A stretch of DNA of 64,000 nt from an uncultured Alphaproteobacteria bacterium (GTDB taxonomy: Bacteria; Pseudomonadota; Alphaproteobacteria; HIMB59; GCA-002718135). The stretch is from positions 1 to 64,000 of the forward strand of contig CACGNZ010000005.1 in NCBI GenBank assembly GCA_902574475.1, read 5' to 3'. The notes below the pieces were generated by a model. It searched no databases. It saw only the letters and a list, made by a program, of their open reading frames with translations, and was not told the DNA's origin. Every line of letters starts with the position of its first letter. The first letter of the stretch is position 1. Positions 16,704 through 21,527 of this stretch are shown one piece after another. The translations under genes and the position numbers were made by a program.

Positions 16704-19245
16704 TCAATTCTTAACTGTTTTTTTCTTTTTTTTGAGACCCATTTTAGCTTTTCTTTCATCAATTAACCTAATGGCATCTTCTAGTTTTAAGCTATCTATT
16801 GATTGATCACCAAGAATTGAAGCATTTATTTTTCCACATTTTACATATGGTCCAAATTTTCCATCATGAGCAGTAATGTTTTTCTTTTCTGTTGGATGCT
16901 CACCAAATGTTTTTAGCGTAGCATTACCTCTCTGTGTAGGTTTAGCAATTAATTCAATGGCTCTTTCAAGTTCAATATCAAGAATATTATCTGTTTTTTC
17001 TAGAGCTTTATATTTTTTATCATGCAGAATATATGGTCCATACATTCCTATACCTGCGCTAACCGTTTTATTTGTTTCTGGATGAAAACCTAATTTACGT
17101 GGTAAGCCAAGTAGTTGAATAGCTGTGTTTAATCCTATTTCATCTGGTTCAAAATTTTTAGGAATAGAAACTCTTTTTGGTTTCTTTTCTTTTGTCCCTT
17201 CACCAACTTGCATATAAAATCCATAAGGACCTTTTCGAAGAGTAATCATTTCACCTGTTTCTGGATAAATACCAATTTCTTTTGGTCCGCTAAGAGCAGC
17301 GCCATCTTTATCGTTTAATTGATTAAACTGAACCGTATATTTACAATCAGGATAATTAGAGCAGCCAATAAATCCTCCAAACTTTCCAACTTTAATTCCT
17401 AGTCTTCCATTATCACAGGTTGGACATTTCCTTTTTTCATCTGCTCCGTTTGGTGGAAAGAAATGCGGACCTAGCGCTTCATCTAACACATCAATCACTT
17501 CTCTATTTGATTTGCCTACTGTTTCATCACAAAGTTGTTTAAATGTTTCCCAAAATTTTCTTAGAACCTCTTTCCAATCAAGCTTACCATCAGAAATTTC
17601 ATCAAGTTGATTTTCAAGATCAGCGGTAAAATCATATTCTACATATTGATTGAAATATTTCTCTAAAAATATCGATACTATTCGTCCTCTATCATGAGGA
17701 TTAAAACGTTTTTTATCTAAAATTACATAATCTCTATCTTGTAGAACTTTAATAATAGAAGCATAAGTAGATGGTCTGCCAATGCCAAGTTCTTCAAGTT
17801 TTTTAACTAAGCTTGCTTCGGTGTAACGAGGAGGAGGGGAGGTAAAATGTTGTGTCTTTTCAACTTCTTTTAAATTTAAACTCTCTCCTTCACTCATTGC
17901 AGGAAGAATTGTTTCTTTTTCTTCATCTTTATCATCATCTTTAGCTTCTTGATAAACTTTGTACATTCCAGGAAACTTGATTGTTGATCCATTTGCTCTT
18001 AAAACAATTTTTTTATCTTCGTTTGTAATATCAACAGCTACCTGATCTAATACAGCACTCGCCATTTGTGAACTTACCGCTCTTTGCCATATAATTTCAT
18101 ATAATTTATATTCTTCTAAAGTAATGTATTGCTTAATATCTTTTGGTGTTAGGTAAATATTTGTTGGTCTAATACATTCATGTGCTTCTTGGGCATTTTT
18201 AGCTTTTGATTTATAAACTCTTGGCGCTTCAGGTAAATAGTTTGCACCATAATTTTCAGTTACAAAACCTCGAACTTGGTTAATAGCTTCTTTTGACATG
18301 ATGACACTGTCTGTTCGCATATAAGTTATTAAGCCAGTTGTTTCTCCTTTAATGTCTGTTCCTTCATAAAGGCGTTGAGCTGTGCGCATTGTTTGGCTCG
18401 CACTAAGACCAAGTTTACGACTAGACTCAATTTGCATCGTAGATGTAGTAAAGGCAGGGTAGGGATTTCTTCTAGCTTCTTTTTTTGTTATATTTCCAAC
18501 AGTGAAAGTAGAATTTTTAATATCATTAAAAATTTTTGTCGCCTCACTCTCATTTTTAATATCAAGTTTATCTACTTTATTCCCATCATAAACTGTAAGT
18601 CTTGAATTAATGATTTTATCTTCTTTATTTCTAAACTCGCCTTGTAAAGACCAATATTCCTGTGGAATAAATTTTTCTATTTCAAGTTCTCTCTCACTAA
18701 TTATTCTTAAGGCAACAGATTGAACTCTACCCGCTGATTTTGAACCTGGTAACTTTCTCCATAGTACTGGAGAAAGTGTAAAACCGACAAGAAAATCTAA
18801 CGCTCTTCTTGCAAGGTAAGCATTTACTAAATTTTCATCTATTTCTCTTGGCTCTTTAAGACTATCAAGAACTGCATTTTTTGTAATTTCATTAAATGTA
18901 ACTCGGTGAATATTTAATTTTGAAAGTGATGAATTATCTCTAAGTAATTTTTCTACATGCCAAGCTATGGCTTCACCTTCACGGTCGGGATCAGTGGCTA
19001 GATATAAATTTTCAGATTTTTTTGCTGCATCTGTAATTTCTTTTATAACTTTTTTTTCCACGATCACTAGTTTCCCATTTCATTTGGAAATCATTTTCAG
19101 TATCTATCGCATCATTTTTTGCTGATAAATCTCGGACATGTCCAACACTTGCGAGAACTTTAAAGTCAGAGCCTAAATATTTATTAATAGACTTTGCCTT
19201 CGATGGTGATTCAACAATTAATACATTCATAAATTTTGGCCCCAA
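16704..19245 (-). CDS. topA: DNA topoisomerase I, apparently frameshifted at an A8 run near 19050-19060
   Basis: N-terminal [20 protein letters not shown] (ORF 19012-19245) and [15 protein letters not shown]...[10 protein letters not shown]...[28 protein letters not shown] (ORF 16704-19067) are continuous if one A is removed. Confidence 0.9.
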
Positions 19246-19295: not shown

Positions 19296-19901
19296 TTACT
19301 TGGATAATTTAATTTTACTTTCAGTTTTTTTTATGAGTCTTTTAATGTTTTCTGTGTGTTTAAGATAAATAATTAAAGTTAAATAAATAAAGAAAATTAG
19401 AATATAAAAATTAAAATTAATAAAAATATAATAAGCTGGAGCTATTAAAATTCCAATTAAAGATCCAAGAGAAGAGTATTTACTTACAAAAGCAGTAACA
19501 AGCCATACCAATAAAAATAAAATTGCAATGTAAGGATTAAAACCAAATAAGAAGCCAATATACGTAGCCACTCCCTTTCCACCCTTGAATTTTAACCAAA
19601 CTGGATAGATATGACCTAAAATCGCAAAGTGACAGAGAAGTATTTTATTCAATAAAGAGATATCTTGAAAATACATTTGTAAAATGAGGAATGGAAGAAA
19701 GCCTTTAAAAATATCAAAACAAAGAACAATGAATGCTACAAATTTATTTCCTGTTCTTAAAACATTTGTTGCGCCTACATTTCCAGAACCAACCTTTCTA
19801 ATATCTCCCAAGCCAAATAATTTTGTAAAAATCAATGCAAAGGGTAATGATCCTATTACATAAAAAAATATGATTAATGATAAACTACTTACTAAAGTCA
19901 T
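19296..19901 (-). CDS. plsY: Glycerol-3-phosphate acyltransferase PlsY
   Basis: GSLPFALIFTKLFGLGDIRKVGSGNVGATNVLR, KGGKGVAT. Confidence 0.95.
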   Translation of the reverse strand: MTLVSSLSLIIFFYVIGSLPFALIFTKLFGLGDIRKVGSGNVGATNVLRTGNKFVAFIVLCFDIFKGFLPFLILQMYFQDISLLNKILLCHFAILGHIYPVWLKFKGGKGVATYIGFLFGFNPYIAILFLLVWLVTAFVSKYSSLGSLIGILIAPAYYIFINFNFYILIFFIYLTLIIYLKHTENIKRLIKKTESKIKLSK

Positions 19902-21030
19902 CTCTGTTTTTAATAATTAAGTCTAAGCATGCCATTCTTACTGCAACGCCCATAGCGACCTGTTCTTGTATTAAGCTCCTCGTGACGTCATCGGCAAGTT
20001 TTGAGTCTATTTCTACACCACGGTTCATTGGACCTGGATGCATAACGAAAGCATTTTTTTTAGCATATTTAAGTTTATTGTAATCTAATCCATACTTTTT
20101 AAAATAAGTCTTTTGATTAGGCATAATTTTTCCAACTATTCTCTCTTTTTGAATACGTAGCATCATAACAATATCACAATTTTGTAATCCCTTTTTCATT
20201 TCAGTATAAACATTCACAGGAAGTTTTTTTAAACTTTTTGGTAACCATTCCTTTGGACCAATAACATTTATTTTTGCACCTAACTTTGAGAGAATGATTA
20301 TGTTTGATCGTGCAACGCGGCTATGTAAAATATCGCCGCATATAGCTATTTTTAATTTTGAAAAATTTTCAAATTTATTTTTTATAGTAAGTGCATCTAA
20401 TAACGCTTGTGTAGGGTGTTCATGACTTCCATCACCAGCGTTAATTACAGAGGCATCAACTGATTCAGAAATTTTTTTACTAATTCCTTCCTCCGGATGT
20501 CTCACAATTAAGACGTCTGGATTCATTGAATTAATAGTAGTCATAGTATCGAGTAAGGTTTCACCTTTATTTATAGAACTATCTTTTACCACTACATTAA
20601 TGAGATCTGCTCCTAACCTTTTAGCAGCAACTTCAAAACTTGTTCTTGTTCTTGTTGAATCTTCAAAGAAAAGATTAAATATTGTTCTCCCCTCTAGAAC
20701 ATTTATTTTTTTAATTTTCCTTTTATTAAAAGATATATATTTTTTAGATTCATCTAAGATGTGCTTAATTTCTTTCTTGGTTAAGTCAGCTGTTTCTACT
20801 AAATGAGTTTTTTTAAAAATATTTTTTGTTCGTTTTAATTTTATATTTGTTTTTGAAGAAATTGATGAATAATATTTTAAAGCTATATTTTCTGCATCTT
20901 TAAGAATTTTTGAACCTGTAGATGATCTGATCGCTTTTAATTTAGGCAATTTGACTTTCATTTGCCAATATTTCGAATTTTCTCTTTTATATAATTTTAT
21001 ATGTCCTGATTTTAGTAGTTTTGAATTCAT
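19885..21030 (-). CDS. pyrB: Aspartate carbamoyltransferase with atypical N-terminal extension of about 70-80 aa
   Basis: FFEDSTRTRTSFEVAAKRLGAD, DGSHEHPTQALLDALTI, HPGPMNRGVEID; the extension KLYKRENSKYWQMKVKLPKLKAIRSSTGSKILKDAENIALKYY resembles integrase arm-binding domains. ATG at 21030 (the track uses TTG at 21039). Confidence 0.93.
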   Translation of the reverse strand: MNSKLLKSGHIKLYKRENSKYWQMKVKLPKLKAIRSSTGSKILKDAENIALKYYSSISSKTNIKLKRTKNIFKKTHLVETADLTKKEIKHILDESKKYISFNKRKIKKINVLEGRTIFNLFFEDSTRTRTSFEVAAKRLGADLINVVVKDSSINKGETLLDTMTTINSMNPDVLIVRHPEEGISKKISESVDASVINAGDGSHEHPTQALLDALTIKNKFENFSKLKIAICGDILHSRVARSNIIILSKLGAKINVIGPKEWLPKSLKKLPVNVYTEMKKGLQNCDIVMMLRIQKERIVGKIMPNQKTYFKKYGLDYNKLKYAKKNAFVMHPGPMNRGVEIDSKLADDVTRSLIQEQVAMGVAVRMACLDLIIKNRDDFSK

Positions 21031-21059
21031 ATGTGTCAATAATGTGTAAGTATGTGTAA
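21031..21059 (-). repeat. Three short direct repeats TKACACAT spaced 10-11 bp, immediately upstream of pyrB
   Basis: On + strand atgtgtca (21031-21038), atgtgtaa (21042-21049), atgtgtaa (21052-21059). Confidence 0.7.
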
Positions 21060-21068
21060 ACTAATTTA

Positions 21069-21527
21069 TTAATTATTTCTATATCTATCTAAATATCCTT
21101 GTAAGATATAAGCAGCCGATTGCTGATCAAGTTTACCTTTTATCTTTGTTTTACTTAAATCAGCTTTTCTCATTTCTTTAAAAATTACATCAGATGAAAA
21201 TCTTTCATCCCAAAGAGCCGTAGGTTTTTTAAAAAAGGTTTGGAGATTATTATTAAAATCTCGTACTAATTGACTTTGTTTATTTTCACTATTATCCATG
21301 CTAATTGGCAGACCAAGAATAAATCCACCAATTTCATACTCTTTCAAAATATCTTTCAAGATGATCAAATCTTTATTAGTGCCTTTTCTTTGAATAATTG
21401 AAAGCGGTGTAGCGATTATTTTCGATCTATCACTTACTGCAACTCCAATCGTTTTAGTGCCTAGGTCTAGACCTACAAGTATTTGTGATGTATTAAGACC
21501 ATCGATTAAATTATTTTGATCATTCAT
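21069..21527 (-). CDS. ruvX: Putative pre-16S rRNA nuclease / Holliday junction resolvase-like YqgF
   Basis: LVGLDLGTKTIGVAVSD, GLPISMDN, LWDERFSS, DQQSAAYILQGYLD; ATG at 21527 preferred. Confidence 0.92.
   Translation of the reverse strand: MNDQNNLIDGLNTSQILVGLDLGTKTIGVAVSDRSKIIATPLSIIQRKGTNKDLIILKDILKEYEIGGFILGLPISMDNSENKQSQLVRDFNNNLQTFFKKPTALWDERFSSDVIFKEMRKADLSKTKIKGKLDQQSAAYILQGYLDRYRNN

Follow-up and report, generated by a model that had tools for sequence, protein, structure and literature searches.

The pyrB Locus and Its Repeat Array

The window, by which we mean the whole 64,000-nt stretch of DNA analyzed here, encodes on its minus strand a chimeric aspartate carbamoyltransferase (ATCase) that is preceded by ruvX and followed by plsY (table 1). 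On this strand, 38 nt separate the ruvX stop codon (21071–21069) from the pyrB ATG (21030–21028), and 29 of these 38 nt are taken up by three short direct repeats. After the ruvX stop codon and a short stretch come site 1, AC, site 2, TAT, and site 3, so that the array (21059–21031) reads TTACACAT-AC-TTACACAT-TAT-TGACACAT and lies directly against the pyrB ATG. An earlier reading of the DNA made without database searches (the sequence-only reading) had described three TKACACAT repeats with periods of 10 and 11 bp before pyrB, and both the minus-strand sequence and the counts given below confirm this description.

Table 1. Positions of pyrB, its parts, its neighbors, and the repeats in the window
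Feature	Position	Strand	Remarks
ruvX, directly upstream of pyrB	21069..21527	minus	Pfam RuvX, E 3.2e-39
Arm-like site 1 (distal), TTACACAT	21052..21059	minus	
Arm-like site 2, TTACACAT	21042..21049	minus	
Arm-like site 3, TGACACAT	21031..21038	minus	Touches the start codon
pyrB, chimeric ATCase	19885..21030	minus	381 aa plus stop
N-terminal domain, aa 1–57, homologous to the tyrosine integrase arm-binding domain	20860..21030	minus	hhalign, HMM, model
Variable linker, aa 58–75	20806..20859	minus	dN/dS 0.19; low confidence in the full-length model
ATCase catalytic part, aa 76–381	19888..20805	minus	Pfam, fold match, motifs
plsY, overlaps the pyrB end	19296..19901	minus	

TKACACAT matches three times on the two strands of the 64-kb window, each time in the ruvX–pyrB gap, and the pattern CACA-N6-7-CACA-N6-7-CACA occurs once in the whole 1.30-Mb assembly, where it corresponds to the array before pyrB. 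By chance, 0.0005 triples of RCACA at a spacing of 10/11 would occur in 64 kb and 0.01 in 1.3 Mb, and the single observed triple is, therefore, far above chance. Pairs of the form CACA-N6-7-CACA are not in excess elsewhere in the genome (18 in all vs. 25 in the reversed control), so there is no sign of a regulon, and the presence of one array per genome indicates that its target would be its own gene, pyrB. Relative to the reading frame the CACA cores differ in phase, and they are preceded by an in-frame stop codon; conservation of the array is at the level of the DNA, and codons are not what is conserved. Searches of the pyrB locus identified neither a tRNA gene nor an integrase, nor an adjoining recombination core with an active integrase, and no sigma-70 promoter-like pair was recognized at the array. 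The locus also did not match an Rfam leader or any other known RNA family. Elsewhere in the window, topA (16704–19245, minus strand) is present as two overlapping frames, 19012–19245 and 16704–19067, which suggests a frameshift or an assembly error.

The N-Terminal Extension of PyrB and Its Integrase Relatives

The ATCase domains of PyrB start near residue 76 and match the Pfam models OTCace_N (E 9.5e-43) and OTCace (E 5.4e-22). The best fold match of this part is the ATCase of B. subtilis (40% identity), and the active-site motifs STRT, HPTQ, RxQ, and HPGP were recognized by inspection. In the full-length model the ATCase part is predicted poorly (mean pLDDT 56) as a result of the shallow alignment. 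The core-binding and catalytic domains of tyrosine recombinases are absent from PyrB, the remainder of which is ATCase. No Pfam arm domain matches the N-terminal extension, and the homologous integrase domains described below also lack a convincing Pfam match.

An HMM of the extension searched against other alphaproteobacteria matched the N-terminal ends of open reading frames of 380–550 aa with E values down to 4e-7. These are tyrosine integrases as judged by weak Pfam matches and by catalytic motifs found on inspection, and annotated relatives on Rhizobium and Asticcacaulis plasmids further support this identity. Aligning the extension profile with the integrase N-terminal profile in hhalign gave a probability of 98% (E 2.7e-13, 33% identity, 54 columns), and in the reverse search an HMM of the integrase domain found the extension of the window's PyrB at E 1.1e-10. 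The model of the extension (pLDDT 93) contains strands at residues 11–15, 23–26, and 34–37 and a helix at residues 43–61; the arm-binding domain has been described as three strands and one helix (PMC8138268), and the extension as modeled agrees with it, with one extra short N-terminal strand. A Foldseek search of the extension against the PDB gave no match to a solved structure, and the top five hits in the viral library included two phage integrases, with a probability of 1.00 and weak E values of 0.07–0.13. A phage origin of the extension was considered and rejected, as the domain had no match in INPHARED, PHROGs, or IMG/VR with the sole exception of an IMG/VR contig that was found with a full integrase (L289). 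No other copies of the domain were found in genomes of the window's family; a weak match to a conserved protein of 403–410 aa in most of these genomes is TrpB and represents noise.

The repeat motif was defined on pyrB first and then looked for in the 120 nt before the start of integrase genes. Among 24 distinct genes with a close domain, some of which are truncated, 15 have a pair of RCACA spaced by 10 or 11 bp, whereas shuffled sequences gave 0.02 on average and never more than 1, and about 20 of the 24 are positive with a relaxed motif, nearly always at 11 bp. The repeats were found at only two of 19 integrases with a distant domain (Fisher p 6e-4 vs. the close-domain set). CACA ranks first among all 256 4-mers upstream of the integrases and the reverse-strand word TGTG gives 0. 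The motif beside the close-domain integrases and before pyrB is T[TACG][AG]CACA, and its degenerate positions are common to integrases and pyrB relatives (TTACACA, TAGCACA, and TAACACA). At one integrase gene, L137, the motif is present three times, TTACACAgttcTTACACActtTTACACAT, with spacings of 11 and 10 bp. The integrase arrays lie some 10–80 nt from the ATG. Wherever int follows a tRNA gene of the same orientation, the repeats are flanked by the 3' end of the tRNA on one side and by the ATG of int on the other, as would be expected of the arm sites of attL. On the strength of these upstream sequences, the repeats can be assigned as candidate arm-type sites to this group of alphaproteobacterial integrases. 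T[TACG][AG]CACA at 11 bp and no more than 90 nt before int was observed at L137, L138, L141, L142, L145, and L254 and likewise at L262, L274, L289, L291, L294, and L295. Several members of the group are located at tRNA-Met genes, and the group is widespread in alphaproteobacteria.

The repeats before pyrB resemble the arm-type (P') sites of lambda Int, Tn916 Int, and alphaproteobacterial islands in being short direct repeats one helical turn apart, and they occur together with an N-terminal reader domain built from three strands plus one helix, as in tyrosine integrase systems, and with a motif common to integrases that have the homologous domain. Unlike tyrosine integrases, PyrB has no core-binding or catalytic domain and its locus has no att core or tRNA gene; instead, a domain of the arm-binding type forms the N terminus of an enzyme whose start codon the sites touch. 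The sequence-only reading had linked the repeats to integrase arm sites, and this link is supported by our finding that integrases with a homologous N-terminal domain also have these repeats, with an 11-bp period, upstream of their start codon. We are highly confident that the array originated as arm sites and the PyrB extension as part of an integrase.

Distribution and Conservation among Relatives

In the marine alphaproteobacterial family to which the window belongs (f1), the extension and the array are present in all genomes with an assembled pyrB start, bar one. In the exception, G132 (L067), PyrB is 310 aa, there is no array, and the ATG lies six bases after the ruvX stop codon. The sister family f2 also has the gene order ruvX-pyrB-plsY with ruvX and pyrB close to each other and has neither extension nor array. 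Because L067 is nested (100/99) in the PyrB tree among other genera having both, the simplest history would be a single gain of extension and array at the base of f1 and a single loss of both together. This co-loss may have been one deletion that removed the extension and the array, in which case it would indicate that they are dispensable for the ATCase rather than that they are functionally tied together. Twenty genomes seemingly lack a pyrB start. In 16 of them the assembly lacks both ruvX and plsY; of the other four, two are readable, with a complete adjacent gene extending to the locus and the contig ending there, and two have a partial ruvX only. None of the 20 is a counterexample to co-occurrence. 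The expectation that the repeats are confined to genomes with the extension, thus, held in both directions: the array accompanies the extension in every relative for which the 5' end is assembled, and relatives without the extension, including the nested genus L067, have no array. The plain 310-aa PyrB of L067 provides a natural control for the domain and the array. The ATCase parts of PyrB in f1 and f2 (L001 vs. L083 and others) are about 47% identical and separated by very long tree branches, from which a replacement of pyrB in one of the two lineages is possible.

Within f1 the number of sites varies, as the distal site is degenerate in three other genera, giving two or three sites and not always three, and L064 has three intact sites spaced 11 + 11. 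Among 78 distinct haplotypes, the CACA core of site 1 is present at the exact spacing in 74; in the remaining four, which are from other genera, it is found at 11 bp in one or two and is degenerate in the rest. At sites 2 and 3 all 78 haplotypes have the CACA core, and in 78/78 the array touches the pyrB start codon. In 997 pairs of close relatives, we counted 0 differences in the 12 columns of the CACA cores, compared with 0.099 at the other positions of the 30-nt array and 0.185 at pyrB 4-fold sites. The dN/dS is 0.115 for the N-terminal domain, 0.19 for the linker, and 0.041 for the ATCase part. Purifying selection acts on the N-terminal domain, and more weakly than on the ATCase part.

These data bear on two alternatives. 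The array and the domain could be leftovers of an integrated element with no present function, as the sequence-only reading had also proposed ("relic arm sites"); both very probably come from an integrase, and one genus has lost both and kept its ATCase. However, there is variation within the genus in the spacers and at 4-fold sites but none in the CACA cores, purifying selection acts on the domain, and several genera retain array and domain. Strict conservation of cores and domain disfavors the proposal, and we regard it as improbable. Alternatively, the array could be the operator of another host regulator, with the domain serving, for example, ATCase assembly or localization. Conservation taken alone is compatible with such a role, but the same motif lies beside integrases that have only this domain in common with PyrB, the array is missing where the domain is missing, and it is unique in the genome, all of which make another regulator equally improbable.

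PyrB as a Candidate Self-Regulating Enzyme

The best explanation that we can offer from the sequence comparisons, and one that fits all findings, is that the N-terminal domain of PyrB would be the reader of an operator array at its own gene. The present function of the extension and the array is probably such self-binding, and, with somewhat less confidence, we favor the view that ATCase, by way of its N-terminal domains, binds at the start of its own gene and represses it. An integrase may once have been located between ruvX and pyrB or been copied there, and in the ancestor of the family its arm-binding domain and arm-type sites would have been captured together, the domain becoming fused to the start of pyrB. 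The captured sites would now be the dedicated operator of the fusion enzyme, which would close the loop. ATCase is a trimer in solved structures; one trimer would, thus, present three arm-binding domains on flexible linkers, and these could dock on three sites that face the same side of the DNA at intervals of one helical turn and extend up to the start codon. When ATCase is abundant, transcription that runs into pyrB or begins there would be blocked, also for plsY downstream, resulting in negative autoregulation in genomes where PyrI was not found. The match of one trimer to three sites is a conjecture, and the loop may also respond to substrates. The fuller proposal, that an integrase gave a complete cassette of reader domain and sites to a core metabolic enzyme and that the homotrimeric ATCase senses its own abundance, and perhaps its substrate state, by docking on three phased sites over the start codon, has in our estimate about an even chance of being correct.

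The position of the array could also point to control of translation, in which the PyrB domain or another protein would bind the ACACAU repeats by the AUG of the mRNA and block ribosomes. The invariable contact of the array with the start codon in the 78 haplotypes and its location where a ribosome-binding site usually lies are in keeping with this. By contrast, the homologous domains are parts of integrases, which bind double-stranded DNA, the integrase arrays stand off from the ATG by the variable distances given above, the helical 10/11 spacing is better suited to DNA, and no Rfam family matches; we consider translational control unlikely.

The direction of control is suggested by precedent. 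Repression of an integrase gene by the integrase itself is documented for cases in which attL and the int promoter overlap, and in KplE1 one arm site lies over the −10 box of that promoter (PMC2951348). PyrB would resemble autoregulated KplE1 intS in that a product with an arm-binding domain has sites that overlie the start of the gene encoding it, and it would differ in that the product is an ATCase and no recombinase and that regulation is inferred for PyrB. The overlap of the KplE1 arm site with the −10 box could be taken to favor positive autoregulation or a promoter function, in which bound PyrB, or the array itself, would aid the start of pyrB transcription. However, the array has no promoter-like pair and the documented precedent (PMC2951348) is repression, which leaves positive control the least probable of the alternatives. 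Repression by PyrB is our preferred reading.

Self-regulating enzymes combine an intact enzyme, a DNA-binding domain, and a site at their own gene, and all three are found for PyrB, the DNA-binding domain by homology. PutA, BirA, and NadR are enzymes in which a fused DNA-binding domain controls their own genes. PyrB is like them in being a metabolic enzyme with a predicted DNA-binding domain and a dedicated site at its own gene; it is unlike them in that the enzyme is an ATCase and that its domain would have come from an integrase and arrived with its own sites. PyrI regulatory chains and PyrR attenuation similarly control pyrB or its product; unlike in those systems, no PyrI was found in 40 genomes of the window's family and no Rfam leader at the locus. 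In the literature, of which our coverage is incomplete, we found no description of such an ATCase. If the preferred reading is true, a reader-and-site pair was domesticated from an integrase as one unit, and a streamlined ocean bacterium has a one-gene feedback loop with no separate regulator. In one relative (L097, G028:C7:66015-66464), a break in the pyrB reading frame separates the domain from the ATCase part, giving frames of 81 aa and 321 aa, with the array intact. The break stems either from misassembly or from the two parts being naturally separate.
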